From positions 1-34,651 of the IMG/VR virus record IMGVR_UViG_3300003323_000086: a DNA stretch of 34,651 nucleotides, one strand, 5' to 3'. The translations under genes and the position numbers were made by a program. A model generated the notes under the pieces. The model worked only from the letters and a program-made list of their open reading frames with translations. It was not told the origin of the DNA and did no database searches. Positions 1 to 31,763 of this stretch are shown piece after piece (positions within the stretch are counted from its first letter, which is position 1; each line of letters opens with the position of its first letter). This stretch comes from a virus.

Positions 1-1155
1 TTCGTGGAAATGTTCAAGGCGCCCATCAAGGTCTTGCATCCGCTGCTGACGGCCACACAGGAAGGTAACTATGTCGGAACTGAAGCTATTTCTGCGATTC
101 CATTCCAAGGCATCATTCTTGCGCACTCTAACGAAAGTGAGTGGAAGACGTTCCGAAACAACAAGAATAATGAAGCGTTTCTTGACCGAATTTGCGTCAT
201 CAAACTTCCGTATTGCCTCCGTGTCACCGAAGAGCAAGAAATTTACCGCAAGATGCTATCGTCGTCCTCTCTCAAAGACGCGCCATGCGTCCCGGAAACC
301 CTCCGAATTCTTGCAGAATTTTGCGTCATGTCACGTCTGAAGGAGCATGAGAATAGCTCCTATTACTCCAAGATGCGAGTGTACGATGGTCAAAACACTA
401 AGGACAGTGATCCCCGGGCTAAGTCGCTCCACGAATACAAGACAGTCGCGGGAGTGGATGAGGGTATGGAAGGAATCAGCACGCGCTTTGCGTTCAAGCG
501 CCTGTCCGAAGCCTTCAATCTGGACCCTGAAGAAATCTCGGCAGACCCGGTGCACTTGCTATTCGTGCTTGAAAAGGCAATTCGCAATGAGCAATTCCCT
601 GAAGAAGCGGAAAAGAAGCTCATCAACTTTGTGAAGGGCGATCTGGCACCCCGCTACGCGGAGTATATCGGTAACGAGATTCAGAAGGCGTATCTGGAAT
701 CCTATGCAGATTTTGGGCAGAACACGTTTGATAACTACGTGGAATATGCCGATGCGTGGATTCAGGATCGGGACTACAAAGACCCCGATACGCACCTGCA
801 AATGGACCGCAAGGCCCTGGATGATGCCATGTCCAAGATCGAAAAGCCCGCAGGGATTGCCAACCCGAAGGACTTCCGTCATGAGGTGGTGAACTTCTGC
901 CTGCGCGCACGTGCCAAGAACGGGGGCAAGAACCCGGCTTGGACAAGCTACGCCAAGTTGCAGGAAGTGATCGAAAAAACAATGTTCGGTCAGATGGAAG
1001 ACATGCTTCCGGTGATTAGCTTTGGCACCAAAAAGGACAAGGATTCAGAGCGCAAACACACTGAGTTTGTGTCTCGGATGGTCAAGCGAGGCTATACCGA
1101 GAAGCAAGTCCGCCGACTGGTCGAGTGGCACTCCCGCGTACACAAGGCTAACTAA
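1..1155 (+). CDS. prkA: PrkA/YeaG-family serine protein kinase, C-terminal part
   Basis: The frame is open from the window edge, so the N-terminal half, including the Walker A of the AAA+ domain, lies outside. The visible part starts with a highly conserved PrkA stretch (LLTATQEGNY, residues ~15-25) and continues with ILAHSNESEW and LDRI, typical of the AAA+ portion, then the PrkA C-terminal kinase domain to the stop. About 384 residues are seen; the bacterial family is about 640. PrkA (E. coli YeaG) is a protein kinase involved in stationary-phase and nitrogen-starvation stress. Its usual partners YeaH and SpoVR follow here on the same strand, which supports the call. The first in-frame start-like codons in the window (GTG at 4, ATG at 10) are internal, not the true start. 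Confidence 0.93.
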   Translation, partial: FVEMFKAPIKVLHPLLTATQEGNYVGTEAISAIPFQGIILAHSNESEWKTFRNNKNNEAFLDRICVIKLPYCLRVTEEQEIYRKMLSSSSLKDAPCVPETLRILAEFCVMSRLKEHENSSYYSKMRVYDGQNTKDSDPRAKSLHEYKTVAGVDEGMEGISTRFAFKRLSEAFNLDPEEISADPVHLLFVLEKAIRNEQFPEEAEKKLINFVKGDLAPRYAEYIGNEIQKAYLESYADFGQNTFDNYVEYADAWIQDRDYKDPDTHLQMDRKALDDAMSKIEKPAGIANPKDFRHEVVNFCLRARAKNGGKNPAWTSYAKLQEVIEKTMFGQMEDMLPVISFGTKKDKDSERKHTEFVSRMVKRGYTEKQVRRLVEWHSRVHKAN

Positions 1156-1397
1156 TGAAGCCTCATATTTTGTATGAGTTTGGTGTTTGGACTTGTATGG
1201 CTTGGTACCCCGGGGCTGAAAAGGATTTTCCATATATTCCTGTAGGGTATGGGGCAAGTCCTTTAGAAGCGTACAAAAGTTATAACTACGAAAAGGACCG
1301 ATATGTCAGTAATCATCGATCGCCGGGAGACGCCTCGGGACCGGAACATCAACAGTCGGGAGAAATTCCTCAAGCGGGCCAGCAAACAGGTTCGTAG
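1155..1397 (+). CDS. small hypothetical protein overlapping the start of yeaH
   Basis: The ATG shares one base with the prkA stop codon, the usual sign of translational coupling. The 80-aa product starts MKPHILYEFGVWTCMAW and contains GYGASPLEAYKSY, resembling a G-x-G-x-(T/S)-P-x-E-A-Y motif common in short phage proteins of unknown role. The last 32 codons overlap the beginning of the DUF444 gene in another frame, and the C-terminal part (rich in P, G, Q) is probably constrained mainly by that gene. No function is proposed. Confidence 0.6.
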   Translation: MKPHILYEFGVWTCMAWYPGAEKDFPYIPVGYGASPLEAYKSYNYEKDRYVSNHRSPGDASGPEHQQSGEIPQAGQQTGS

Positions 1398-2562
1398 GGC
1401 TGTGGATGACGCCATTACCGATGGCAGTCTGGAGGATTTGCAGAAAGGTAAGGTTAAAGTCCCGGTCAAGGGGATTGATGAGCCTACCTTTCAGCATGAT
1501 TGGGATACCGGTTCAAAGGATTGGGTAGCTCCTGGGAACAAGGATTTTGTAGAGGGCGACACCATCAATAAACCCCCGCAAGGGGGTGGCAAGGGTGGGG
1601 AAGCCTCAGAAGACGGGGAAGGCGAAGATGAGTTCGTGTTCACTCTCACCCAAGAGGAATTCTTGAATTACTTCTTTGAAGATCTGGAGTTACCCGATCT
1701 GCAAAAGAAGACTTTGATGGAGTTGGAGCGTGTCCGAATTCGACGTGCCGGTTTTACATCCTCTGGTAGCCCTACTAATCTTGCTCTTGTGCGTACTATG
1801 CGCAATAGTCTTGGTCGCCGTATTGGCCTAGGTCGGCCCTCCAGTGACAAGATTGAAGAACTGGAACAGGCACTAGAGGAACTGGAAGAACACGAGGAAG
1901 ACGCCCGCCAAGACATTTTGGCACGGCTGGAAGAACTTAAACAGCGCACTAAGGCTATCCCGTGGATTGATCCGATTGATGTTCGGTACAAGGCGTTTGA
2001 GCCTAAGCCCTACCCGATCTCACAAGCAGTTGTGTTCTTCCTGATGGACGTGTCCGGCTCGATGGAAGAACGGGAAAAGGACATCGCAAAGCGGTTCTTC
2101 CTGCTACTGAAGATTTTCCTTAACCGTAAGTACGAGCGGGTAGATGTGGTATTTGTACGACATCATTCCATTGCAGAAGAATGTAATGAGTTTGATTTCT
2201 TCTACAAGCCAGAAAGTGGGGGCACTGTAGTTTCTACGGGACTGGAGTTGGTGAACAAGGTTATCAAGGAACGATACCCTTTGGAAGACTGGAATATCTA
2301 TATTGCCCAGGCTTCAGATGGAGATAATTTCTGGTCGGATGACAAGAAGTGTATTGCCGTCCTGAATGATCTTTTGCCTAAAGTGCAGTACTATGCCTAT
2401 CTGGATATCCCTAATCGGTATTCCAGCCCTGTGACTCCTAGCCAACTGTGGGAAATGTTCTCGGCAATGCTGCCAGACTATGCTAATCTACAGATTAAGC
2501 AGGCCCTGAGTGTTAAGGACATCTGGATGGTGTTTAAGGAACTGTTCAAGAAAGAGGACTAA
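1303..2562 (+). CDS. yeaH: YeaH-like DUF444 protein with VWA fold
   Basis: The 419-aa product is close to the usual length of the family (E. coli YeaH is about 427). It has the charged N-terminal region of DUF444, a glycine-rich linker (residues ~93-107), an acidic helical stretch (~183-213) and a C-terminal von Willebrand A-like domain with a MIDAS motif, DVSGS at 249-253, followed by the conserved ESGGTVVSTG at 304-313. The start is supported by AAGGA seven bases upstream. YeaH is genetically and physically linked to the kinase YeaG/PrkA; here it directly follows prkA and precedes spoVR, so the trio is complete. Its molecular role is unclear even in bacteria. Confidence 0.95.
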   Translation: MSVIIDRRETPRDRNINSREKFLKRASKQVRRAVDDAITDGSLEDLQKGKVKVPVKGIDEPTFQHDWDTGSKDWVAPGNKDFVEGDTINKPPQGGGKGGEASEDGEGEDEFVFTLTQEEFLNYFFEDLELPDLQKKTLMELERVRIRRAGFTSSGSPTNLALVRTMRNSLGRRIGLGRPSSDKIEELEQALEELEEHEEDARQDILARLEELKQRTKAIPWIDPIDVRYKAFEPKPYPISQAVVFFLMDVSGSMEEREKDIAKRFFLLLKIFLNRKYERVDVVFVRHHSIAEECNEFDFFYKPESGGTVVSTGLELVNKVIKERYPLEDWNIYIAQASDGDNFWSDDKKCIAVLNDLLPKVQYYAYLDIPNRYSSPVTPSQLWEMFSAMLPDYANLQIKQALSVKDIWMVFKELFKKED

Positions 2563-2564
2563 TC

Positions 2565-2723
2565 ATGAACTACGAACTCATTACCTATTTCTCTACCAGC
2601 AACACCATGGATGAAATCTTGGATCGGTGGAGCCACGGCACAGCGGCAGAGCAGGCCCTTGCAAAGATGATTGACGACCACATTGAGGATTATTTGTTTT
2701 CGGAGTGGAATAACCATGAATAA
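2565..2723 (+). CDS. small hypothetical acidic protein
   Basis: A 52-aa ORF begins two bases after the yeaH stop, with AGAGGA as a plausible ribosome binding site, and overlaps the next lipoprotein gene by 8 bases. The product (MNYELITYFSTSNTMDE...) is acidic, probably helical, and has no signal or membrane segment. The tight packing in the operon is the main reason to accept it. Function unknown. Confidence 0.55.
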   Translation: MNYELITYFSTSNTMDEILDRWSHGTAAEQALAKMIDDHIEDYLFSEWNNHE

Positions 2724-3093
2724 ATTTATTACCGCCTGTGTTTCTGCACTCTTCCTGGCCGCATGCTCAAATGACGCAGATGTAGCCTCCCGCAATCTCT
2801 CCACAGATGCTGATAATTTTAAGATTAACCGGCGTATTGTGTTCTATAACGGAATTACGGGAGACTACATGCTAACTATCGAGGGCCTTTGTTCTAAAGA
2901 CAATAGTAGCACTGATCGAAAACTTGCCATTGTGTGTAAAACGGGCCCGAACGCTTATAAAAAACATTTTCTGGGCTTGTCAGATAATGTAACGTACTTC
3001 ATCGAACAAATCGACGCGGCCAATGTAAGTGAATACCATTACAAGGTAATCTTTAAACCTTCGGAAATCGTCCCGGAGATTGAAATTCGGTGA
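2716..3093 (+). CDS. phage beta-sandwich lipoprotein
   Basis: The start chosen gives a clear lipoprotein signal: MNKF, a hydrophobic core, then lipobox LAAC with the modified cysteine at residue 17. An upstream in-frame codon would bury the signal peptide. The mature part contains INRRIVFYNGITGDY and KTGPNAYKKHFLGLSDNVTY, which I recognise from a family seen in many enterobacterial and other phages and annotated as beta-sandwich lipoprotein. The mature protein should sit on the outer or inner membrane of the infected cell. Phage lipoproteins of this kind are sometimes linked to superinfection exclusion, but nothing in the sequence proves that. Confidence 0.85.
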   Translation: MNKFITACVSALFLAACSNDADVASRNLSTDADNFKINRRIVFYNGITGDYMLTIEGLCSKDNSSTDRKLAIVCKTGPNAYKKHFLGLSDNVTYFIEQIDAANVSEYHYKVIFKPSEIVPEIEIR

Positions 3094-3097
3094 TTCC

Positions 3098-4549
3098 ATG
3101 AGACCCCTATTCACAGGTAATGAGTGGTCTTTTAAGCTGATCGAGAAGACAGATCAAGCTATCAAGAAGATCGCCACTGAGGAACTGGGCCTAGAGCCTT
3201 ACCCAGCACAGATCGAAATTATTAGCAGCGATCAGATGCTGGAGTTGTATAGCTCTACCGGCCTGCCGATGAACTATAGCCACTGGAGTTTCGGTAAGCG
3301 CTACCTACGGGACGAATACCAGTACCGAAAGGGTATGTCTGGTCTGGCGTACGAAATCGTCATTAACTCTAACCCGTGCATTGCGTACCTTATGGAAGAG
3401 AACACCATGACGATGCAGGCACTTGTGATTGCACACGCGAGCTATGGGCATTCGGACTTCTTCAGGAACAACTACCTATTCAAGCAATGGACTGACGCAG
3501 CAGGTATTCTGGACTATCTTTCTTTCGCCCGCCGATTCATACTTGAGTGTGAACAAAAGTACGGATACGATGAGGTTGAGTGGACGCTTGACGCCTGCCA
3601 CAGCCTGCAAGATTATGGGGTTGATCGGTACAAACGACCTCGACGACTGTCTTTGCAGGATGAAATCACTCGTGCCCAAGATCGTAGTGAACAACGTCAG
3701 CGAGAAGCCCACTATCTCTATGACACAATCACACCGTCAGCCCCTGACGACGTAGAAGAAGAGTTTGAAACCTTTCCTCCCGAACCCCAAGAAAACCTGC
3801 TGTATTTCTTGGAAAAGCATAGCCCAGTACTGGAGGAATGGCAGCGTGAGATTGTGCGGATTGTGCGTAAGATCGCCCAGTATTTCTATCCGCAAGCACA
3901 AACTAAGGTGATGAATGAGGGTTGGGCTACCTTTGTTCACTACTACATCATGAACCGGCTTTGGGAGAAAGGACAACTTACCGATGGACAATACCTCGAA
4001 TTTGTCGCTAGCCATAGCGGAGTTGTATTACAATCACGGTACGATTCTCCCTATTACTCTGGATTCAACCCATATTGGCTTGGGTTTAACATGTTCCAAG
4101 ACATCCGAAGGATGTGTGAGCATCCGAGTGATGAAGACCGAGAATGGTTTCCAGATATCGCTGGCAGAGAATGGAAAAGTACTCTACGAGAAGCTATGGT
4201 GAACTATCGGGATGAGTCGTTTATTCGACAATTCCTGTCACCTAACCTGATCCGCAAATATCATTTGTTTAGGGTAAACGATAGTAAGGACACCCATTAC
4301 ACGGTGGACTTTATCCAGAACGAGCGCGGGTACAAGAAGGTTCGTACCGCTCTAGCAGATATGTACACTCAGTCACAGCGCCAGCCCCATATTCAGGTGG
4401 AACGGGCCGATCTTCGCTACAGCCGTACGTTGTATTTGACCCACAAGAAGTACAATGGGGTAGAACTTAAAGACCCTAAGAAGGTATTGGGTGCAGTAGA
4501 ATATCTGTGGGGGTATCAAGTTAAACTAGATTCGGTGGAGGACGTATGA
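3098..4549 (+). CDS. spoVR: SpoVR/YcgB family protein
   Basis: The product of about 483 aa is the usual size of the family. It carries SpoVR hallmarks: HWSFGKRY near residue 66, ALVIAHASYGHSDFFRNN near 108-125, and MNEGWATFVHYYIMNRL near 275-290. The His/Glu clusters may bind a metal. SpoVR was named for a spore cortex defect in Bacillus; in proteobacteria (YcgB) it belongs with PrkA and YeaH and responds to starvation. ATG 3098 has GGTGA just upstream; an alternative TTG at 3080 would add six residues and overlap the lipoprotein gene. It is the third member of the trio and is followed by a start overlapping its stop (ATGA). Confidence 0.95.
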   Translation: MRPLFTGNEWSFKLIEKTDQAIKKIATEELGLEPYPAQIEIISSDQMLELYSSTGLPMNYSHWSFGKRYLRDEYQYRKGMSGLAYEIVINSNPCIAYLMEENTMTMQALVIAHASYGHSDFFRNNYLFKQWTDAAGILDYLSFARRFILECEQKYGYDEVEWTLDACHSLQDYGVDRYKRPRRLSLQDEITRAQDRSEQRQREAHYLYDTITPSAPDDVEEEFETFPPEPQENLLYFLEKHSPVLEEWQREIVRIVRKIAQYFYPQAQTKVMNEGWATFVHYYIMNRLWEKGQLTDGQYLEFVASHSGVVLQSRYDSPYYSGFNPYWLGFNMFQDIRRMCEHPSDEDREWFPDIAGREWKSTLREAMVNYRDESFIRQFLSPNLIRKYHLFRVNDSKDTHYTVDFIQNERGYKKVRTALADMYTQSQRQPHIQVERADLRYSRTLYLTHKKYNGVELKDPKKVLGAVEYLWGYQVKLDSVEDV

Positions 4550-4779
4550 AATGGTATAAAGACCCATCGTTTATTGCAATCATCTTTGCCCTGGGGTTTT
4601 GGTGTTGGGCCATGTATGTGGATATGGCGGCAGATCAGCAAAAGGCCGCAGAGATTGAAAAGCGCCACAATGCAGAATTACAAGAAGTAGCAAATACGGC
4701 CTATAAGATGGGCAAGCAGATTGCCCGAGATGACTGCCGACGAGTGCGGGACAAGGAAGAGGAAAATGCGCCCAAATAA
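4546..4779 (+). CDS. small membrane protein with coiled-coil tail
   Basis: The start overlaps the spoVR stop codon (ATGA). The 77-aa product has one N-terminal transmembrane segment (residues ~8-26, IIFALGFWCWAMYV) followed by a charged helical tail with two cysteines or charged repeats (QQKAAEIEKRHNAELQE). This is the shape of a small inner-membrane accessory protein or an i-spanin-like protein, but a proper Rz pair is present elsewhere, so a spanin role is unlikely. Function unknown. Confidence 0.7.
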   Translation: MKWYKDPSFIAIIFALGFWCWAMYVDMAADQQKAAEIEKRHNAELQEVANTAYKMGKQIARDDCRRVRDKEEENAPK

Positions 4780-4942
4780 CCGACTCACTAAGCACAAGCT
4801 GTACGAATGGCTCAAGAAGAACTGCCCAGAGATCCTGCTGGAAGATATGGATGAGCTATTCAAGATTTACAAGGCAGACACTGACCATGCCTACGCCTTA
4901 GGCTACCACGATGGATTCAACGATAGGGGGATTCAATGCTAG
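4766..4942 (+). CDS. small hypothetical protein
   Basis: The 58-aa product (MRPNNRLTKHKLYEWLKKN...) starts at an ATG preceded by AAGGAAGAGGAAA, a strong binding site lying inside the end of the previous gene. An upstream in-frame start exists but lacks this site. The C-terminus DHAYALGYHDGFNDRG resembles short helical motifs (A-x-x-x-G-Y-x-x-G) of many small phage proteins. No signal or membrane segment. Function unknown. Confidence 0.65.
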   Translation: MRPNNRLTKHKLYEWLKKNCPEILLEDMDELFKIYKADTDHAYALGYHDGFNDRGIQC

Positions 4943-5013
4943 GATTGCTTGTGGCAGTGCTGTTTGTGATTGCACTGATTTGCTGCGTAGACTGGAGGAA
5001 ATGGGATGACTAG
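4936..5013 (+). CDS. 25-aa membrane micro-protein
   Basis: A 26-codon ORF starts with ATG overlapping the previous stop and has AGGGGG five bases upstream. The peptide MLGLLVAVLFVIALICCVDW... is nearly all one transmembrane helix with a short charged C-terminus. Such peptides are often missed by gene finders. Good binding site plus overlaps on both sides support translation. Function unknown. Confidence 0.5.
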   Translation: MLGLLVAVLFVIALICCVDWRKWDD

Positions 5014-5167
5014 TCACCAAACCCAAACATGGATTGATGATGCTCTGTTGGATTCTTATATTTTGGAGTTTTTGAAACAGGCGCAGATATTTTCGCAAAA
5101 GGCGAATATTCCCGAATTTAAAGAAGCTTTAGCCCTTCTTCACAAAGTAAACGATGTACAGAAATAA
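5006..5167 (+). CDS. small hypothetical protein
   Basis: A 53-aa ORF overlaps the preceding micro-gene (by 8 bases) and the following HNH gene (by 14 bases). GGAGG lies about ten bases upstream of the ATG. The product (MTSHQTQTWIDDALLDSYILEF...) looks like a compact helical protein. No recognisable family. Confidence 0.55.
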   Translation: MTSHQTQTWIDDALLDSYILEFLKQAQIFSQKANIPEFKEALALLHKVNDVQK

Positions 5168-5441
5168 GAAGCTGCTGGCGCTTGCAAATGGGAAGTGTTG
5201 TGCGAACTGTGGCACTGAAGATGGTACGGTAGTGTCCGCACACAGCAACATGTTGCAGCATGGGAAGGGGCGGGGAATCAAGGCAAATGACTGGGCGATT
5301 GCGTGGCTGTGCTTTCGGTGCCATACTGAATATGACCAAGGCACCAAGCTCAATCGCAGGGAGAAAGAGGTATTTTTCCTCAATGCTGCCTTGAAGACTT
5401 ACGGTATGATGCTAGAGTTAGGACTATTGGAGGTTAAATGA
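5154..5441 (+). CDS. YbcO/DUF1364-like HNH-fold protein
   Basis: The 95-aa product contains CCANCGTEDGTVVSAHSN (residues ~15-32), HGKGRGIKANDW (~36-47) and LCFRCHTEYD (~52-61). This Cys-x-x-Cys, AHSN, Cys-x-x-Cys-His layout matches the DUF1364/YbcO family of lambdoid phages, an HNH-like zinc fold suspected to be a nuclease in the nin region. The zinc ligands (two CxxC pairs) and the histidines are present. It overlaps its neighbours on both sides, so it belongs to the same operon. Biochemical activity is inferred from the family only. Confidence 0.85.
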   Translation: MYRNKKLLALANGKCCANCGTEDGTVVSAHSNMLQHGKGRGIKANDWAIAWLCFRCHTEYDQGTKLNRREKEVFFLNAALKTYGMMLELGLLEVK

Positions 5442-5692
5442 TCCACGCTAATCGAGCAAAAGAAATTGCTGACAAGTTTGACCCAGTGTCAGATCGAGAA
5501 ACGCGGCTTGCCAAAACTAAAGCCGAAATTTCGGAAAAAATTCTTGAAGCTGCCAGAACTGGGAAATACCATGTGCATGTAGCTATAGAAGCAGATATTG
5601 CTGGAGACATGTGCGGGTATTTGTGTGGGGATTGTGGGTATCTTGTAACTCAGACATTCCCCCACAGTTGTTTTAAGATTTCTTGGACCTAG
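5438..5692 (+). CDS. hypothetical protein with CxxC pair, last gene of the left operon
   Basis: The start overlaps the previous stop (ATGA). The 84-aa product has a charged helical N-terminus (MIHANRAKEIADKFDP) and a cysteine-containing C-terminus (DMCGYLCGDCGYL) that could hold a metal or a disulfide. Its TAG stop overlaps, tail to tail, the stop of the Rz1 gene on the other strand; no terminator hairpin lies between the converging operons. Function unknown. Confidence 0.65.
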   Translation: MIHANRAKEIADKFDPVSDRETRLAKTKAEISEKILEAARTGKYHVHVAIEADIAGDMCGYLCGDCGYLVTQTFPHSCFKISWT

Positions 5693-5925
5693 CAGCCACC
5701 TAAAGCAGCCTCTAGCTGTTCTTCATACCCTAAATGCAATTGGATGTCTGACAGTACGCATTTAGTCATATTGAACACGGATTCTCCAGGCTGTACGCAG
5801 GCAGGATACTGAAACTGGGGTTTCTCGATCTGCGGTGGGTTGCATTTGACCGGCACAGGCACTTGAACTGTTTTGACGGTCGAGGCACACCCAGCCAACA
5901 GTAGCACTAAGCAAAGGTATTTCAT
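5689..5925 (-). CDS. Rz1-like outer-membrane spanin lipoprotein
   Basis: The 78-aa product has a short lipoprotein signal with lipobox LAGC (Cys at residue 13), then a proline-rich segment (VQVPVPVKCNPPQIEKPQFQYP), both typical of o-spanins. Its start overlaps the stop of the Rz-like gene (ATGA), the usual separated-but-overlapping spanin arrangement. With Rz it fuses inner and outer membranes at the last step of lysis. The mature chain, about 66 residues with three further cysteines, is a little longer than lambda Rz1. Confidence 0.85.
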   Translation of the reverse strand: MKYLCLVLLLAGCASTVKTVQVPVPVKCNPPQIEKPQFQYPACVQPGESVFNMTKCVLSDIQLHLGYEEQLEAALGGC

Positions 5926-6257
5926 TTCACACTCTCTAGAAACAGATTCTGCGCATCCTCACAAGTAGAACCAATTGCCTCCTGAAGTTTTTTTGCCCGG
6001 TTGTAGTTTGACTGGGCGTTTTTCTTTGCTTGTGCTAAAGCTGCATCACGTGCCTTGTTAGCGGCGTCAATCTGTGCTCTCATAGCGTCCACTGCCGCAT
6101 TCTGCGTATCGATAGCGGCGTTGGCTGCCGCTACCTGCTTGGTAAGCTCGTTGATAGTAGTTTGGCGATGGTCCGCTTCAAGTTTGAACCACGCAACAGC
6201 CGCCAGCAATACAATCGCAATCCCAGCCTCAAGATACGTCCTGATTCCCAGCATCAT
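5922..6257 (-). CDS. Rz-like inner-membrane spanin
   Basis: The 111-aa product has one N-terminal transmembrane segment (residues ~10-25, AGIAIVLLAAVAWFKL) followed by a long alanine-rich coiled coil (~30-95, repeated A/Q/K heptads such as AAANAAIDTQNAAVDAMRAQ). This is the i-spanin form. It is coupled to the holin gene upstream (stop and ATGATG overlap) and to Rz1 downstream. It spans the periplasm to meet the Rz1 lipoprotein. Confidence 0.85.
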   Translation of the reverse strand: MMLGIRTYLEAGIAIVLLAAVAWFKLEADHRQTTINELTKQVAAANAAIDTQNAAVDAMRAQIDAANKARDAALAQAKKNAQSNYNRAKKLQEAIGSTCEDAQNLFLESVK

Positions 6258-6484
6258 TTTTCACACTCACGTTTCAATCCAAGAGCGACTCCTACGCCGC
6301 CAAACAAGGCAGCAACCCCACCCCCGAAGTTAAGCACATCGAAATGTGCCTTATTGACAACAATGTCCCAAAACGCCAAACCCAAAGCAGACAGGATTGA
6401 CATCACAGCCAGATACTTTACAATATCGTGAGTCTGGTTGTCCGATTCCGTAAACAGTTGCCTAACCACTTCTCGCAAACCCAT
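6254..6484 (-). CDS. probable holin, two transmembrane segments
   Basis: The 76-aa product has a charged N-terminus, a first hydrophobic segment (~25-46, LAVMSILSALGLAFWDIVV), and a second glycine-rich one (~54-70, GGGVAALFGGVGVALGLK), ending in a charged tail. This fits a class II holin that opens the inner membrane to the endolysin. GGGGG about seven bases upstream is a good binding site. Position inside the lysis cassette supports the call; the other membrane protein at 7074-7265 is a competing candidate, and the two may act as holin and antiholin. Confidence 0.7.
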   Translation of the reverse strand: MGLREVVRQLFTESDNQTHDIVKYLAVMSILSALGLAFWDIVVNKAHFDVLNFGGGVAALFGGVGVALGLKRECEK

Positions 6485-6487
6485 ATG

Positions 6488-6589
6488 CTACCCCCATCTA
6501 TCGCGCTTCTGCTTGCGCTCTTCGCGGCGCTCTTGTTTCTTTTTCTCAGCACTACGTTGTTGTTGCCTTTCCCGAAATTCTTTATTCAT
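6488..6589 (-). CDS. 33-aa highly charged basic micro-protein in the lysis cassette
   Basis: The start codon overlaps the endolysin stop (ATGA) and the stop lies four bases before the holin start, so the ORF fills the gap exactly. The peptide is almost entirely charged (many K, R, E, Q; for example RREERKQKRD), predicted as a single helix, with no membrane segment. The upstream binding site is weak, so translation would depend on coupling to the endolysin. Function unknown. Confidence 0.5.
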   Translation of the reverse strand: MNKEFRERQQQRSAEKKKQERREERKQKRDRWG

Positions 6590-7074
6590 TTTTGATTCTG
6601 ACGATAAACATGTTCAGCCAAGACGTAATCCCCACTTTCGTACAAAGTGTACTCAGCCAGACGGCGTGCTTTCAGGCCCTTTACTGGAACTCCTCCAGCA
6701 TTAATCCACTTGCCCCACTCCGTACCAATTTCTACAATTGGGGCCATAGCGTTAATTTTCTTCAACAGTGTGCTACTATCCAGATTCCCTTTCCCTAAGT
6801 TGTAGGTAAAGCACACCAAAGCATCAAACTCGGATTGGGTCAAAGTACCCTGCACAGCCGTGTTTACGGCCCCCTCAGCAGTCTCTAGGTCTCGTGCCAG
6901 TAGGGAAGTAGCTTCTACGCTGGAAATCGCTCCAAAGACCTCTCCAGGCTTAATCAGGTGTCCAAATCCAATGGTGGGCAGGCCAGCGCTATCGTTGTAC
7001 GGCACAGCGCTGAAACCTTCAAACATCTTGATAAACTCTACCCCCTGTGAGGAGGTTTTACGTGCATAATCCAT
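6586..7074 (-). CDS. endolysin, GH24 lysozyme (T4/P22 type)
   Basis: The 162-aa product has the full phage lysozyme signature. The catalytic Glu in MFEGF is followed after eight residues by Asp (YND) and after five more by Thr (PTIGFGH), the E-8-D-5-T spacing of GH24 enzymes. It cuts the glycan backbone of murein. There is no N-terminal signal or anchor segment, so release through a holin is expected. Its start overlaps the stop of the upstream membrane-protein gene (TAATG). Confidence 0.95.
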   Translation of the reverse strand: MDYARKTSSQGVEFIKMFEGFSAVPYNDSAGLPTIGFGHLIKPGEVFGAISSVEATSLLARDLETAEGAVNTAVQGTLTQSEFDALVCFTYNLGKGNLDSSTLLKKINAMAPIVEIGTEWGKWINAGGVPVKGLKARRLAEYTLYESGDYVLAEHVYRQNQK

Positions 7075-7265
7075 TACTTGAATTTAAAGAAGAAATTATA
7101 GGCGCCGGCCACACCGGCACCGAGAACAAATAACCATTTAAAGACTGCCACCACGGCATTGGCTGTTCGCCATGCCTCCACCAAATCCTTGATATCGGAT
7201 TGCATTGCCTTTACCGATTCTTCAAGTTCCGCCACCCTCATTGCAATATTATCGTTATCACTCAT
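7074..7265 (-). CDS. small coiled-coil/transmembrane protein, XhlA-like; candidate holin partner
   Basis: The 63-aa product has an N-terminal heptad region (AELEESVKAMQSDIKDL) and a C-terminal transmembrane segment (~38-58, AVVAVFKWLFVLGAGVAGAY) with a short basic tail. This is the layout of haemolysin XhlA-type proteins, which often sit beside phage lysis genes. It is coupled at both ends (ATGA with the upstream gene, TAATG with the endolysin). It may be the holin, an antiholin or a lysis regulator. Confidence 0.65.
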   Translation of the reverse strand: MSDNDNIAMRVAELEESVKAMQSDIKDLVEAWRTANAVVAVFKWLFVLGAGVAGAYNFFFKFK

Positions 7266-7636
7266 ACCGGTTCCACTAAAATGTAAGCTAATGTTGACGT
7301 ATCAGCACCATTGCTGGACGTAATTGTAAAGCTACTACCTACTGATCTTGTAATTGTATAGGCACCCGCATTTACTGCGGTCTGGGTTGTGAGAAACACC
7401 AGAGTATTTGCTGTAATTTTAGTAGTGCTGATTGTTTTTGTACCTGCCACTAAAGCAGTGGTTCCTACTGTGCCACTGCTGGAAAATACGGTCAGGCCCT
7501 GCGTCACCCAATTCCACAAACGATCCAGCCAGCGTTCCCAGGTATCGTTTCTTGTGGTATCAGGCCGTTGCCCCATTCGGGGCACGTCAAACGTATTTTC
7601 CTTAGTCGGATATCGGTCTAGTTTTTGGAATGCCAT
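7262..7636 (-). CDS. hypothetical virion-module protein
   Basis: ATG 7636, overlapping the stop of the ATP-grasp gene (TAATG), is preferred over an in-frame GTG at 7651. The 124-aa product begins MAFQKLDRYPTKENTFD, has a tryptophan-rich segment (WERWLDRLWNWV, ~33-44), then a Thr/Ser/Val-rich half that looks like beta-structure. It resembles small structural proteins near tail or lysis genes, but I do not recognise a family. Confidence 0.65.
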   Translation of the reverse strand: MAFQKLDRYPTKENTFDVPRMGQRPDTTRNDTWERWLDRLWNWVTQGLTVFSSSGTVGTTALVAGTKTISTTKITANTLVFLTTQTAVNAGAYTITRSVGSSFTITSSNGADTSTLAYILVEPV

Positions 7637-8955
7637 TATTCGTAGCTCCACCCGTCCGCGTAGCCGTGCTCTTGGATTTCCTCCAAATGCTTTTCTAGGC
7701 GCTTACCGATATCAATACGCCACATCGGGCTATTAGGAACTTCGGCTTTCTTTAGCGCACGGTATGCCCGCTTTGCAGATCCGGCAACAGAATAATCGGT
7801 ACCGGTGGCGACAAGGATATAGTCCCCCGCTGTGACAAACATCCGGCCATCCACGATTTGACCGTCTTTCTCAATGGGGGCTTTGCCCATCTTGACTTCG
7901 CATAGATGGATGTCGGTATGCAAGAATCCTTCAACTCCATAGATCGGAAAGCCGGATACTTCTTCCTTCTTCTTGTTGCCGTACGGAAAGTCTGGAATTG
8001 CCATCACTACGCCGGTAGAAACTTCCCCCTCCAGAACTTCCAGAGTGTCCTTGCCTTCGATCAAGTCCAGCATCCATTGAGCCGGGTCTCCTAGATGGAG
8101 TGCGGTCTGGATGATGAAGCACGGCCAACCGGGGCGGGTTGTGAATTCCAGGGGCCACGGCTTGCCTTCTTTATCGATGATAACAGCCACATCCACATAG
8201 CCTACGTAGTTCATCTTTTTGAGCATGCCAGTGAGGGGTAGCAGCATTTCATCAGCTAACTTGGAATGCTCTACGTACTTAAGGCAAGTGCCCATCTCAC
8301 CGGTATTAACGCCGTTATCTCCGGCCATCAGCTTCTTGTGCTCAAAATTCTCACAGAACCACTTAGACCAGCCTACCGGGCCAAACCAGCCTCCCACAGC
8401 CATTTCAATTCCAGGATTAAACTCCTGTAGGATAAACGGAGATTTGTTCTTGCCCATCTCCTTCCAACGTTGAAGCATGAAGATCATGTCAGCCGGAGAC
8501 TTGGACACATACGACAAGGCTTTATCCGCATCCCCTGAGGGCTTGGACACATACCGCTTCATGGTCTTCTTGACGTATTCAATGGCTTTGTCGTAGTCAT
8601 TGAACTCAATCGATTCCATGATATCGATACCGGCTTTCTTAAAGGCTTGCTGTCCCGCATCGCGGTCTAATTCCAGCTTGGCAGCCTCTACACCTGGGCC
8701 AAAGATTGGGTATCCCTTTTTACGGTATGGCTCCAGTTTTTCAATTTCCTTGGCGTTGTCCGTCAAAAAGATCAGGTCTGCCCAATCCATATGCGGTTCC
8801 CAGCGGGGAACACGTTGCACAATCCCGTCCCCCACATCGCAGCGCGTACCGTCTTTGCGAGGGCCACACCACATACGCACCTCATGCCCCACTTCCAAGC
8901 ATTGCTGCGCCCAATCGAGCGCGGCTCCGCACAGGTCGATTAAAAGGATTTTCAT
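7636..8955 (-). CDS. PurD-like ATP-grasp enzyme
   Basis: The 439-aa length matches glycinamide ribonucleotide synthetase (PurD, about 430). Family-like features in order are MKILLIDLCGAALDWA at the N-terminus, an ATP-grasp lysine region (RYVSKPSGDADKAL, ~134-147), ILQEFNPGIEMAVGGW (~175-190), GVNTGEMGTC (~214-223, compare NTGGMG in PurD), a metal-site strand (KPWPLEFTTRPGW) and a C-terminal ...RIDIGKR like the RDIGYR of PurD. The PurD EFN-x-RFGDPE site is altered to EFTTRPGWP, so a usual Mg2+-binding Asn is missing and the N-terminal GGREHA signature is absent. The substrate may therefore not be phosphoribosylamine. It lies between the ejection-protein and lysis genes and overlaps both neighbours. 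Confidence 0.8.
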   Translation of the reverse strand: MKILLIDLCGAALDWAQQCLEVGHEVRMWCGPRKDGTRCDVGDGIVQRVPRWEPHMDWADLIFLTDNAKEIEKLEPYRKKGYPIFGPGVEAAKLELDRDAGQQAFKKAGIDIMESIEFNDYDKAIEYVKKTMKRYVSKPSGDADKALSYVSKSPADMIFMLQRWKEMGKNKSPFILQEFNPGIEMAVGGWFGPVGWSKWFCENFEHKKLMAGDNGVNTGEMGTCLKYVEHSKLADEMLLPLTGMLKKMNYVGYVDVAVIIDKEGKPWPLEFTTRPGWPCFIIQTALHLGDPAQWMLDLIEGKDTLEVLEGEVSTGVVMAIPDFPYGNKKKEEVSGFPIYGVEGFLHTDIHLCEVKMGKAPIEKDGQIVDGRMFVTAGDYILVATGTDYSVAGSAKRAYRALKKAEVPNSPMWRIDIGKRLEKHLEEIQEHGYADGWSYE

Positions 8956-17512: not shown

Positions 17513-19609
17513 TTAGACAGTATATTCCATAGAAAGGTATACAAATTGTCCGGTACCGGCCCCATAAGAAATGGTCGCCCCGATACTAGCTTGTTGCACT
17601 AAAGATATGGTAGTGGAACCGGTGGTAGCAATCCCAACTGCTGGGTTGGCTCCTAATCCTGACAGCCCCACTAGACCCATAGCATTCACCCCAGCCGGGG
17701 CAAATGGAAGCCCCCGAATTACTACTTGTCCAGAGGCGCCGGTAGTAGTCACATTCAAAAATGTAACTTCAACACGAACAATACGCCCTATCCGTGTCCA
17801 GCGGCCTGTGGATGTAACTGGGGTTGTCGGATCTGTTGTAGACCCCCCTAAAGTAGCTGTCCAAGTGCCTTCGTCATAATAATTAAGAGAGGCCCCATTA
17901 ACTGTGCCCGGAAACCGAATACCGTCAATAGAATTGATGATTGTTAAGCCGCCAGTATTAGATACCGTCCCGAAAGGCTTTCCAATCCAGACAACCCGTT
18001 TATTATTTAAATTATAAACCGGGCTATCGCCTGTTTGTGTATAACAATTAATTACAACAGTGTCTTGGCCGGATTGAATATTAATATCATATTTTCCAGC
18101 AGTTACTGTGTCTCCGTTTCTTGCGACATTAGTAAATGTGTTAGCTACTGCTTCTAGCCCGGTTCCCGAGGTCATCAAGATGATGTCTTGAGTGTACGCC
18201 CCGCTGGCATCCCAAAAAGAAATATTCTGGAAATTACAATTCTTAAAAGAACTGATTTGGAATGCCCCACCCTTACACACTTCAAAATTGAGGTTTTTAA
18301 AGGTGTTATTAGTCAGCCAGTTTGATCCTGCTACAATCCCAATATTAAAAAATTGTGTGCCAGTAGCATTATACAGCCGCAGGTTTTCAAAAAGGTTTTC
18401 ATTAAAAATAGTACCATTGGCCTTGAATTGAACCCCCGGAACGGTCGATCCTACTGGGACAATCCAATTCCCTCCACGGAACTTAGTATCGTAAACTCCT
18501 CCGCCACTTGCGGAGTAATCCCCGTAAATGCAAGATTTTGCAGTGTTAGTTTGGTTTAGTTCTACATTATCAATAAAACAAGTAGTGCACCCATAAACAA
18601 TATTAATAAGGTGCCCACCAGAAGACGTGTTTGTGATTTGTAGATCCCTAATCCACGAATTTTGCAAGAATTGCGTGGTAGAGAATTTGATAGCATCTAC
18701 CCCAGCCGCTGTAACATTGATAATTGTATTTCTTCCAGCTCCACGAAGAGAAATCCCACGAGTATAAACCCCGGTATCCATTGTCAAAGACGATGAAATA
18801 TTATAAGTGCCGTTGGGTAAATATACTTCTCCGCCAATAGTAGCAACATAATTTAAAGCTGCCTGGATGGCGGCGGTATCATCGGCAACACCATTTCCAA
18901 CTGCTCCAAAGTCTTTTGCGCTGACAACATCTTGCAGTTTAGACGGAACAGACCTAGCTACACTGCCCGTTCCTCCTTGTAAATAGTTTAAATTACTTGT
19001 AGCAGTAGTTTTATTGTTTAGATCTGATAGGTTATTGGCGATAGCAAGCGCACCAATATTGTTTGCTGCTGTAGCTCCAGCAGATGTTGCCCCAGTCCCG
19101 CCACCAGAAACTCCCAAAACTCCATAGTTAGGATCTGCTGTGCCCCCGCCACTGAGTAAAGGTTGGCCGGAACTTCCTGGAGCAACCGCTACCACCGGCC
19201 CAGTTCCTTGCCCAATGAGCACCCCATGGGCGCTAAGCGTACTGGCTCCGGTACCCCCACTACTTACAGAAATTGCGGTAGACGAGGTAACACTACTGAA
19301 CGCTCCAGAGGAGGGCGTATTCGCTCCAATAGGAGTTCCATCGATATTTCCACCCGTAATAGCCACAGCATTGGCATTTTGTGTGGAAATACTTCCAAGT
19401 CCTAAATTAATTCGAGCTTGGGCCGCAGTAGTTGCCCCGGTACCTCCGGAGGCAATCGCGATTGGTAAAGTCAGTCCTAAATATTGCTGAATAGCCAACG
19501 CTAAAGCGTTTAGCGGAATATCGCAGGTAGCCCCGGTCACTACCCCCGTTGCGGTGTCCGTAGTTAGATTAATTGTTCGGGTTCCGATAGGGTAGCTGCC
19601 CTGTTGCAT
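17513..19609 (-). CDS. tailspike with pectate-lyase-like beta-helix
   Basis: The 698-aa product has an N-terminal fibre-like part (~50-220) with repeats of the SGGTGATTAAQARINLG type and a linker, then KDFGAVGNGVADDTAAIQAA (~232-251), the entry motif of the pectate_lyase_3 right-handed beta-helix, followed by long helix rungs with many Asn and Thr (to ~540). The C-terminal domain starts DEGTWTATLGG and includes RWTRIGRIVRVEV, a common fibre end domain. It probably binds and may degrade a surface polysaccharide; no catalytic residues can be assigned by eye. Its start overlaps the previous stop (TAATG). Confidence 0.85.
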   Translation of the reverse strand: MQQGSYPIGTRTINLTTDTATGVVTGATCDIPLNALALAIQQYLGLTLPIAIASGGTGATTAAQARINLGLGSISTQNANAVAITGGNIDGTPIGANTPSSGAFSSVTSSTAISVSSGGTGASTLSAHGVLIGQGTGPVVAVAPGSSGQPLLSGGGTADPNYGVLGVSGGGTGATSAGATAANNIGALAIANNLSDLNNKTTATSNLNYLQGGTGSVARSVPSKLQDVVSAKDFGAVGNGVADDTAAIQAALNYVATIGGEVYLPNGTYNISSSLTMDTGVYTRGISLRGAGRNTIINVTAAGVDAIKFSTTQFLQNSWIRDLQITNTSSGGHLINIVYGCTTCFIDNVELNQTNTAKSCIYGDYSASGGGVYDTKFRGGNWIVPVGSTVPGVQFKANGTIFNENLFENLRLYNATGTQFFNIGIVAGSNWLTNNTFKNLNFEVCKGGAFQISSFKNCNFQNISFWDASGAYTQDIILMTSGTGLEAVANTFTNVARNGDTVTAGKYDINIQSGQDTVVINCYTQTGDSPVYNLNNKRVVWIGKPFGTVSNTGGLTIINSIDGIRFPGTVNGASLNYYDEGTWTATLGGSTTDPTTPVTSTGRWTRIGRIVRVEVTFLNVTTTGASGQVVIRGLPFAPAGVNAMGLVGLSGLGANPAVGIATTGSTTISLVQQASIGATISYGAGTGQFVYLSMEYTV

Positions 19610-23669: not shown

Positions 23670-24482
23670 TTACGAGTTATAAAGGCGAAGATATTCTTCT
23701 CGGCCAAGTTTGGGATGCTCTTTAACGAATGCATCGCATGCCGCTTTTGCATCCGGAGGCAGGCGGTCATACGTGACTTTGCCAGTGCTACGGGTGTTAC
23801 CGCCGCCGGTCGGAGCCTCTACCATGTTGGCACGCTTGCGGGTTGCAAACTTTTCCGGGAAATTAGCCTTGATTTGCTGTTCCACGGCTTGCAGCAATTC
23901 CATCCCGCGAATACCTTGCTGCCCAAGCTGAATTGCATAGCCGGTAGCTGCTGCGCTCAACCCTGCGTCTTTTTCTGCCCAAGCATTGTCTTGTACCCAT
24001 GCTTTGAACTCGTCTTGGGAGAACAACGAGGGCTGTGCTTGGGGTGCGGGCTTGTCGCTGGGGAAATCCGGGGCGTTTTCTCGCAGGTTATCTAACTGAT
24101 CCTCAAACTCTGCCGCCGTATCATAATCTCCGGTTGCCCGGGCGGCTTTGATTTGACTCTTCAGGAAATTAATCTGACTGTCATATTCCTTTTTGACCTG
24201 TTCCTTCTGCATACGGATAATTTCCGAGGCAGTGTTTTTGTATTGGTCAAATTGGCCTTTAATTTCCTGAATTTGCTTCTTCAATTCCTCGTTGTTTTTG
24301 CGAAGAATCGGGTTCAGGCGCTGCCCAAACTCAAGAAACTCAGCAGCATCACGCCAATGGTCCGGGTTGCCTTCAAATTCATCAAGCGGCTTCCAGCCTT
24401 GTTGCCGTGCTTCTGCTTCAATCGCTGCTACATCAGCGTCACCACCGCCGGTATCGGCGTTATCGATAATTTCGTCGCTCAT
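23670..24482 (-). CDS. capsid scaffolding protein
   Basis: The 270-aa product is acidic at the N-terminus and has a long coiled coil (~60-135, for example NEELKKQIQEIKGQFDQYK and QVKKEYDSQINFLKSQIK). It ends with a basic/charged helix near the C-terminus (AACDAFVKEHPKLGREEYL), where scaffolds bind the capsid protein. Position between portal and capsid genes fits. Its start overlaps the stop of the GroES-like gene (ATGA). Confidence 0.8.
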   Translation of the reverse strand: MSDEIIDNADTGGGDADVAAIEAEARQQGWKPLDEFEGNPDHWRDAAEFLEFGQRLNPILRKNNEELKKQIQEIKGQFDQYKNTASEIIRMQKEQVKKEYDSQINFLKSQIKAARATGDYDTAAEFEDQLDNLRENAPDFPSDKPAPQAQPSLFSQDEFKAWVQDNAWAEKDAGLSAAATGYAIQLGQQGIRGMELLQAVEQQIKANFPEKFATRKRANMVEAPTGGGNTRSTGKVTYDRLPPDAKAACDAFVKEHPKLGREEYLRLYNS

Positions 24483-24820
24483 TCCTCAATTCCTACAATA
24501 TCTAAGTCGTTTACTACTCGATATTCCTGCTCATCCTTTCCAATAAGGCGATTTCCGGCATATTTGCCGATTTGCACCCGGTCTCCCACCTTGCACCAAG
24601 CGGTTGGGTCTTTGCCCATTGCCATCTCAATTCTTGCAAGAGGGGTGTCCATCCAGCAATCCGGGCCAATTTCGACCACAACGCCCTTAATTTGAGCATT
24701 TTGTTCCTTATTGACCAAATCTTGCGCTAGAATGATGCCGCCTTCCGATACTTCCTCTACTTTATCCACCTTGATGAGGACACGCGGACCTCGTGGATGG
24801 AAACCAGATTCATTAATCAT
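24479..24820 (-). CDS. GroES-like co-chaperonin
   Basis: The product (113 aa from ATG 24820) shows the Cpn10 fold pattern: HPRGPRVLIKVDKVEEVSEGGIILA (GroES: RPLHDRVLVK...SAGGIVL), then KGVVVEIGPDC (GroES: GEVVAVGNG), VGDRVQIGKYAG (VGDIVIFN), and a final VVNDLDIVGIEE (ESDILAIVE). A GTG at 24844 in frame is an alternative start. GroES caps GroEL; T4 gp31 and similar phage co-chaperonins replace it for capsid folding. No GroEL-like gene is visible, so it would act with the host chaperonin. Located among portal, scaffold and capsid genes. Confidence 0.8.
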   Translation of the reverse strand: MINESGFHPRGPRVLIKVDKVEEVSEGGIILAQDLVNKEQNAQIKGVVVEIGPDCWMDTPLARIEMAMGKDPTAWCKVGDRVQIGKYAGNRLIGKDEQEYRVVNDLDIVGIEE

Positions 24821-25052
24821 TTCGTGCCAGATCCACAAATTCACCGTAGCCCATCGTAAAAATCTGCTTTAACGTCGCCAACTTCTGTTGGAGGCGTGCA
24901 GATGCACGTGCGGCCATTTCTGGGTTCGGAAGGTTGTATTCGCCTTCCACAAATCGATCAAGATCCCGGTTGTACTCGTTTTTGAGTGCTTCCATTACTT
25001 CCTGGGTTTCGCTTTGGCTTAACCAGCTTTCCCATTGCTGTCGAGTCAGCAT
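24813..25052 (-). CDS. small protein nested in the end of the portal gene
   Basis: The 79-aa product (MLTRQQWESWLSQSETQEVM...) starts inside the portal gene and overlaps it by 95 bases in another frame. AGAGGT eight bases upstream supports the start. It is mostly helical and acidic. Its end overlaps the GroES-like start. Role unknown; it may assist head assembly. Confidence 0.65.
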   Translation of the reverse strand: MLTRQQWESWLSQSETQEVMEALKNEYNRDLDRFVEGEYNLPNPEMAARASARLQQKLATLKQIFTMGYGEFVDLARND

Positions 25053-29481: not shown

Positions 29482-29567
29482 TGGTGCCCAAGGCCGGGAT
29501 CGAACCGGCACGCACTCATGGCTGCGGATTTTAAGTCCGCTATGTCTACCAGTTTCATCACTCGGGC
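29482..29567 (-). tRNA. tRNA-Leu(UAA)
   Basis: A complete cloverleaf with long variable arm on the minus strand: acceptor GCCCGAG/CTTGGGC, anticodon stem GCGGA/TCCGC with loop CTTAAAA (anticodon TAA), T arm GCCGG-TTCGATC-CCGGC, and encoded CCA. It reads UUA and UUG, codons that are rare in many GC-rich hosts. Confidence 0.95.
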
Positions 29568-29569
29568 AT

Positions 29570-29645
29570 TGGAGCGGGCGATGGGTCTCGAACCCACGAC
29601 ATTTTGCTTGGAAGGCAAAAGCTCTACCAACTGAGCTACGCCCGC
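29570..29645 (-). tRNA. tRNA-Gly(UCC)
   Basis: A complete cloverleaf on the minus strand: acceptor GCGGGCG/CGCCCGC, anticodon loop CTTCCAA (anticodon TCC), T arm GTGGG-TTCGAGA-CCCAT, and encoded CCA. Only two bases separate it from tRNA-Leu, and it begins directly after the stop codon of the upstream ORF, so it must be cut from a longer transcript. Confidence 0.95.
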
Positions 29646-31390: not shown

Positions 31391-31579
31391 ATGCGTACTG
31401 AATGGGAATTGGGAAAGCCGCCTTGCTTGGTGACGGTTAAGGCTATCGTTAGGGGGCATGTGCGTAAGGGGGTAAGCGACGGGGTGTACTTCTGGTTCTC
31501 TGACTGTGACCGTCCTGAACAAAACATGGTGAATGTTATAGAAGTGGTAGAAGCTTGGAAGGTAGATGATGAGAACTAA
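31391..31579 (+). CDS. small hypothetical protein, first gene of the right operon
   Basis: ATG 31391 has GAGGAGAAA just upstream and is preferred to an in-frame start at 31355. The 62-aa product (MRTEWELGKPPCLVTVKAIV...) looks like a small beta-barrel-like protein with an acidic C-terminus. It overlaps the next gene by 14 bases. Function unknown. Confidence 0.7.
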   Translation: MRTEWELGKPPCLVTVKAIVRGHVRKGVSDGVYFWFSDCDRPEQNMVNVIEVVEAWKVDDEN

Positions 31580-31763
31580 TCAGTACATTCAAGCAAGGGA
31601 TGCTGTGCTTAGGACCGGCATTCCATCGGTAGCACAGCTACATCGTGAGCTAGGGTGTGGATACAAACAGGCCGCTATCTACCTGGAACGACTAGAGAAG
31701 GCTGGTATTGTGTCTCCTATATGCAACGGTCAGCGTGTTGTTGTGAAAAAGATCAAACAATAG
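31566..31763 (+). CDS. stand-alone FtsK-gamma-like winged-helix protein
   Basis: The 65-aa product consists of almost nothing but a winged helix resembling the gamma domain of FtsK: SVAQLHRELGCGYKQAAIYL and LEKAGIVSP (compare GYNRAARIIEQME and GIVS of E. coli FtsK). In FtsK this domain reads KOPS sequences to orient DNA translocation. No motor domain is attached here. GGAAGG lies upstream of the start. It may be a regulator or a KOPS-binding interference protein; DNA binding is inferred from the family. Confidence 0.75.
   Translation: MMRTNQYIQARDAVLRTGIPSVAQLHRELGCGYKQAAIYLERLEKAGIVSPICNGQRVVVKKIKQ

Follow-up and report, generated by a model that had tools for sequence, protein, structure and literature searches.

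A prkA-yeaH-spoVR gene set, very probably of phage lineage, in a podovirus-type viral contig

The IMG/VR virus record IMGVR_UViG_3300003323_000086, analyzed here in its entirety (34,651 bases, linear, without terminal repeats; "the window"), opens inside a plus-strand block that carries prkA (yeaG), yeaH, and spoVR. The trees of these genes leave us in little doubt that the window carries a phage-borne cassette of a phage lineage. PrkA, YeaH, and SpoVR are widely carried by IMG/VR phages, most of them large, and individual phages with these genes (Thermus phages, phages of >600 kb, and RsoM2USA) were already known; the new elements are the presence of the trio in a lineage of small podovirus-type phages that is otherwise without it, the phage genes lying within the block, and an apparent shared phage ancestry of prkA, yeaH, and spoVR. 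Regarding function, our leading but tentative interpretation, drawn from sequence, structure models, and analogy, is that the products may form an AAA+/VWA/SpoVR machine that serves infection of starved hosts.

The three genes and their conserved residues

The sequence-only reading of this DNA had described the trio as complete, which is true of yeaH and spoVR but not of prkA: the contig starts inside prkA and retains only its 3' part, encoding the last 384 of some 645 residues (positions 1 to 1155, plus strand). This assignment rests on two Pfam families and on alignment with full-length PrkA. The AAA_PrkA profile (PF08298) is matched over its positions 239 to 358 of 358 (196 bits; cutoff, 25), and the C-terminal domain is whole (PF06798, 1 to 255, 228 bits; cutoff, 25). 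K426, the proposed kinase lysine in YeaG numbering, is present as window residue 166 (codon 496 to 498), and K116, R232, and K426 are conserved in every one of the 10 full-length PrkA proteins from the closest phage contigs. As judged from these alignments, the short prkA reflects the contig end, with no sign of a broken gene.

yeaH (1303 to 2562, plus strand) encodes a DUF444 protein that matches PF04285 with 510 bits over residues 2 to 418 of 418 and has a vWA/MIDAS domain in its C-terminal half. The MIDAS motif, D-V-S-G-S, lies at residues 249 to 253 (positions 2047 to 2061, plus strand); the MIDAS residues D249, S251, S253, T308, and D339 are kept and invariant, bearing out both the family and the motif named from the letters alone. 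The AlphaFold2 model of YeaH has a mean predicted local distance difference test (pLDDT) score of 82, and its C-terminal half matches vWA folds in the PDB.

spoVR (3098 to 4549, plus strand) is complete with both domains (PF04293, 558 bits; PF24755, 53 bits); we favor the ATG at 3098 as its start over the upstream TTG at 3080, which gives the longest open reading frame (ORF). The AlphaFold2 model is confident (pLDDT 89.5). H119, H124, and N279-E280-G281 (numbered from 3080) are invariant among 100 sequences, and the H-x4-H and N-E-G motifs (H119/H124/E280) are possibly a metal site, a lead only. The window keeps nearly every alignment column that is invariant in all other rows: 56 of 56 in spoVR, 43 of 44 in yeaH, and 86 of 89 in prkA. 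By their profile scores, the matches of all three genes are well above chance level. One solved PrkA structure, 9xip, is a distant relative and leaves activity undecided.

The trio in other phages and in bacteria

Gene order was compared for the IMG/VR loci in which 5 kb or more of sequence follows prkA. The genes occur in the order prkA-yeaH-spoVR on one strand in all 58 viral loci and in all 68 of the nearest cellular loci; inserts between them were found in 13 viral loci versus 2 cellular ones, and at least two of the viral inserts are homing endonucleases (L024 and L041). Flanks of the partner contigs encode UvsX, DnaB, ligase, endolysin, and homing endonucleases. A T4-type DNA polymerase lies close to the trio in one contig (L002), and large terminases are present on L015, L021, and other partner contigs. 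In two of the closest phage contigs, a dimethylarginine-dimethylaminohydrolase-like gene lies immediately 5' of prkA (L015, 3291 to 4088; L016, 7835 to 8620).

The bacterial genes (Rhizobium etli CH02817-CH02815; Escherichia coli yeaGH plus ycgB) share families, order, strand, and invariant residues with those of the window (PMC3188799, PMC4664914). Unlike the bacterial operon, the window trio is divergent in sequence, has phage genes interleaved, and groups with phage copies. Among phages, the order in IMG/VR contigs L013 to L092 is as in the window, and 10 to 14 IMG/VR contigs form the window's clade. Trio contigs with a detected terminase range from 35 to 580 kb, mostly far above podovirus size, and the examined flanks of the trio-bearing large-phage contigs showed none of the structural genes of the window. 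The uncultured phages LR756502, LR745206, and LR756504 (>600 kb) likewise have all three genes, which are adjacent in the usual order in LR745206 and LR756504, whereas LR756502 has spoVR elsewhere in its genome. Thermus phages (phiYS40, TMA, MN1, Lalka8, and others) carry a PrkA-like kinase, a vWA protein, and SpoVR near one another and partly annotated as such (a serine kinase and SpoVR); their copies show only 23 to 39% identity and form a separate deep branch, and MN1 has the vWA gene first, then SpoVR, then the kinase. In the Ralstonia jumbo myovirus RsoM2USA (344 kb), SpoVR (ORF28) is annotated near PrkA (ORF30), and the parts of that report available to us do not recognize the trio as a unit (PMC8504454); the RsoM2USA record was absent among our phage-search matches. 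Among the "sporulation" genes of a virome from an oxygen-minimum zone, spoVR ranked first in abundance (PMC8940887). Among the open-licence literature, we found no paper that treats prkA-yeaH-spoVR as one phage cassette.

Phage lineage of the trio

Trees of the three proteins, a check proposed in the sequence-only reading, were built from the window, 31 viral contigs, one 635-kb phage, and 36 cellular loci. In each of them the window joins the same ten viral contigs, with Shimodaira-Hasegawa-like approximate likelihood ratio test (SH-aLRT) support of 98 for yeaH, 98 for spoVR, and 99 for the concatenated alignment. When 19 viral and 11 cellular loci were added, the window fell within a viral-only clade of 15 (support, 99) with L343 as its sister (96). 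An approximately unbiased (AU) test rejected constraining the window to group with cells (P = 3e-5); a second AU test again rejected window plus cells (P = 0.002), being weaker for the window alone and also forcing all cells together. The ratio of nonsynonymous to synonymous substitution rates (dN/dS) among phage copies is 0.04 to 0.23 where dS is measurable, dS being near saturation; the trio is under purifying selection in related phages.

Some results temper this placement. In the prkA tree, the grouping with the ten viral contigs has an SH-aLRT of just 49, and nearly all cellular loci in the trees come from Pseudomonadota. Identity to the nearest phage is close to that to the nearest cell (prkA, 73.1 versus 72.1%; yeaH, 51.6 versus 51.1%; spoVR, 59.2 versus 56.7%), and because the values for cells almost equal those for phages, the window's grouping with phages is a deep one.

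One contig labeled viral (L008, IMGVR_UViG_3300047550_004286) departs from most others: a cellular copy (L154) is the one with which its trio groups, so that this contig may represent a recent transfer or host DNA that entered the virus collection.

A rival reading is that the window itself joins host and phage DNA, as a chimera or a prophage edge; a chimeric contig was among the refuting outcomes named at the outset. prkA does lie at the contig end, and host flanks seem to occur in such records: in that of Enterobacter phage LAU1 (L173, MN688132.1), yeaG-yeaH opens the record (1 to 3308) beside lambda-type tail genes and is probably a prophage host flank. Here, a lipoprotein gene stands between yeaH and spoVR, an HNH gene follows downstream, ORFs overlap up to the spanin gene of the lysis cassette, and G+C content is even along the record (0.44 to 0.53 in 1.5-kb steps). 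The trees put the trio with viral copies, and the AU tests reject cells. We reject a chimeric contig for yeaH onward and regard an artifactual junction as highly improbable overall; the sequence-only reading was right to place the trio in a genuine phage operon.

Proposed function and competing explanations

The bacterial genes are linked to starvation, as the sequence-only reading stated. In R. etli, prkA shares an operon with a vWA gene and a spoVR gene, three genes in all, and this operon is induced >27-fold by (p)ppGpp (PMC3188799), and in E. coli yeaG and yeaH act jointly in nitrogen starvation (PMC4664914). YcgB, YeaH, and YeaG are conserved together, and a common sensitivity to antimicrobial peptides has been reported for mutants of ycgB and of yeaH (PMC2375023). 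Remodelling of a client is the typical task of an AAA+ ATPase that has a VWA partner, metal insertion by NorQ/NorD being an example (PMC13036017); NorQ/NorD and RavA/ViaA each combine an AAA+ ATPase with a VWA/MIDAS protein, as PrkA and YeaH would (PMC13036017, PMC3893208). With its vWA fold, YeaH fits the VWA/MIDAS half of a MoxR-type pair; PrkA matches only PrkA families in Pfam, not a MoxR-family AAA+ protein. By analogy, PrkA-YeaH may work like a MoxR-type AAA+/VWA pair without being classed as MoxR. To our knowledge, no physical PrkA-YeaH complex has been shown so far.

We propose that PrkA, as AAA+ motor, and YeaH, as VWA/MIDAS adaptor, would form a remodelling pair, with SpoVR, possibly a metal-dependent protein, as its partner or client. 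Made during infection, such a machine would stand in for, or strengthen, a host function that growth-arrested cells require, and the phage could thereby hold off and later resume growth in a starved host. Phage growth in starved hosts would be plausible. We are distinctly more hesitant about a broader version, in which the trio would be a self-contained three-part machine (AAA+ motor, VWA adaptor, and metal-dependent SpoVR client) turned mobile cassette, with which phages that differ greatly in size would hijack growth-arrest physiology for replication in, or persistence through, starvation.

PrkA might instead act as a Ser/Thr protein kinase that rewires host signalling, for example toward the RpoS or stringent programme, with YeaH and SpoVR as accessories. 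The window does have the whole C-terminal kinase-like domain and retains K426; protein kinase activity was reported for the E. coli and Bacillus subtilis PrkA proteins (PMC3188799), and K426A does not complement in E. coli yeaG (PMC4664914). Yet K116 and R232 mutants also fail, all three residues being required in vivo, which points to a required AAA+ motor (PMC4664914). Purified Bacillus anthracis PrkA showed negligible kinase and protease activity (PMC13001217), and a prkA gene that is strictly accompanied by those for a VWA protein and for SpoVR better suits a three-part machine. Partly because of that negligible activity, we prefer an AAA+ motor with a VWA adaptor and SpoVR; Ser/Thr phosphorylation signalling is the less likely mode, the "kinase" label is doubtful, and the earlier suggestion that the kinase phosphorylates host or phage targets appears weak. 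We consider kinase signalling unlikely as an account of the trio.

Less probable still is a decoy, in which the phage copies would poison or sequester the host PrkA-YeaH-SpoVR complex and so block entry into stasis. The copies do diverge from those of hosts (the best matches are about 51% for yeaH and about 57% for spoVR), but catalytic and invariant residues are kept in all three proteins, the set is full in 58 of 58 loci, and dN/dS is low. This reading is disfavored because an inhibitor needs neither all three genes nor every active site. Nor do we think it at all likely that the genes are passive cargo, acquired but without a role in the phage. The absence of PrkA and SpoVR from 41 records with a related backbone argues for sporadic acquisition in this lineage; against cargo stand the viral-clade placement, purifying selection, full frames, intact motifs, and recurrence of the complete set in unrelated phages.

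The proposed AAA+/VWA/SpoVR machine itself faces several difficulties. The Walker A (K116) and arginine finger (R232) positions fall off the contig, upstream of base 1, because the window PrkA enters only at residue 261 of the 644-residue YeaG in the Enterobacter LAU1 record to which it was aligned. The R. etli prkA mutants had no clear stress phenotype (PMC3188799). SpoVR has no significant relative in the PDB, by sequence or by fold, and its chemistry is therefore only a guess.

Operon layout and phage identity

From base 1, the plus-strand order is prkA, a small ORF, yeaH, a small ORF, the lipoprotein gene, spoVR, three small ORFs, an HNH/YbcO-type nuclease gene, and a final small ORF. The first small ORF (1155 to 1397, plus strand; 80 amino acids), which may or may not be a gene, opens on the final base of the prkA stop codon, overlaps the yeaH start, and has no family match. 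The second (2565 to 2723, plus strand; 52 amino acids) begins 2 bases after yeaH and overlaps the lipoprotein gene by 8 bases. The lipoprotein (2716 to 3093 from its ATG, plus strand; 125 amino acids, lipobox LAAC) belongs to the Phage_VG64 family (PF25682, 188 bits; phrog_478), so the lipoprotein noted earlier among the trio genes is confirmed; family matches occur in 797 of 50,697 phage records. The phrog_478 label "recombination directionality factor" is unlikely to apply, given the lipobox, the spread through many phages, and a Pfam entry that says only Phage_VG64. Downstream of spoVR, the operon continues with ORFs at 4546 to 4779 (overlapping spoVR by 4 bases), 4721 to 4942, and 5006 to 5167, all on the plus strand, then the HNH/YbcO-type phage nuclease (5154 to 5441, plus strand; phrog_131, 84.7 bits; PF07102 under the Pfam cutoff) and a final ORF (5438 to 5692, plus strand) that meets the converging spanin gene in a 4-base tail-to-tail overlap. 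A scan of positions 1 to 8000 for promoters and terminators gave counts no higher than in shuffled sequence.

The minus-strand late module (5689 to 29252) encodes spanins, endolysin, an ATP-grasp protein, internal virion proteins, connector, tail fibre, capsid, a protein in the scaffold position, GroES, portal, large terminase, and a putative small terminase; genes for tRNA-Leu(TAA) and tRNA-Gly(TCC) follow (29482 to 29645, minus strand). Terminase, portal, GroES, scaffold-position, and capsid genes are homologous to, and in the same order as, those of a GroES-encoding podovirus-type lineage, and matches extend to the connector, tail fibre, internal virion genes, endolysin, and spanins. Relatives with the portal/capsid/GroES/terminase module and its order are MW202796 (43.8 kb, circular; portal 51%, capsid 64%, large terminase 46%, and GroES 41% identity), Alcaligenes phage vB_Af_QDWS535 (50.1 kb), and MW202785 (40 kb); Pelagibacter phage HTVC023P and Caulobacter phage RW (57 to 62 kb) match the late module more distantly. 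IMG/VR searches with the window's large terminase or portal sequence alone gave no close relatives, and the portal alignment leads to the broad lineage at about 50%. From this gene content, the phage is probably podovirus-type, with a genome of approximately 40 to 60 kb; its off-contig part should carry replication genes.

We take the trio block to be the distal end of an early/middle operon, the podovirus-type relatives being 40 to 62 kb. PrkA and SpoVR were each found in 0 of the 41 related-backbone records, most of which are fragments. In QDWS535 and MW202796, two complete relatives that have no PrkA or SpoVR, ribonucleotide reductase genes occupy the equivalent slot, at the early-operon end facing the late module; gene position thus suggests that this slot is an accessory-gene site of the podovirus-type lineage.

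Other features of the window are peripheral to the trio. The GroES co-chaperonin gene (24479 to 24844, minus strand), between the portal and scaffold-position genes, is conserved throughout the lineage. The ATP-grasp protein of the late module (7636 to 8955, minus strand) is related to phosphoribosylglycinamide synthetase (GARS_A, 38 bits) and has a homologue in MW202796 (47% over 438 amino acids). A 65-amino-acid protein (31566 to 31763, plus strand) is a stand-alone FtsK gamma domain, a DNA-reading winged helix (38 bits); FtsK-orienting polar sequences (KOPS), the usual FtsK gamma targets, occur at chance frequency in the window. A small protein (7262 to 7651, minus strand) has a K1-lyase C-terminal domain and the tail fibre (17513 to 19609, minus strand) a pectate-lyase-like domain; both are likely polysaccharide-degrading tail parts.

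Significance

Starvation is the state of most bacteria in nature, and the trio offers a handle on how phages deal with starved hosts as well as on what the operon does biochemically. One of the most strongly starvation-induced bacterial operons recurs in phages as a full set and forms a lineage of its own that phages hand on to one another, and the phage copies, which retain all three genes together, point to the minimal functional unit. Our findings also suggest that, when virome surveys count "spoVR" toward sporulation, the gene often belongs to this starvation cassette and is no proof of sporulation. If the proposed function is true, a phage may bring its own machinery to grow, or to wait, in starved cells.

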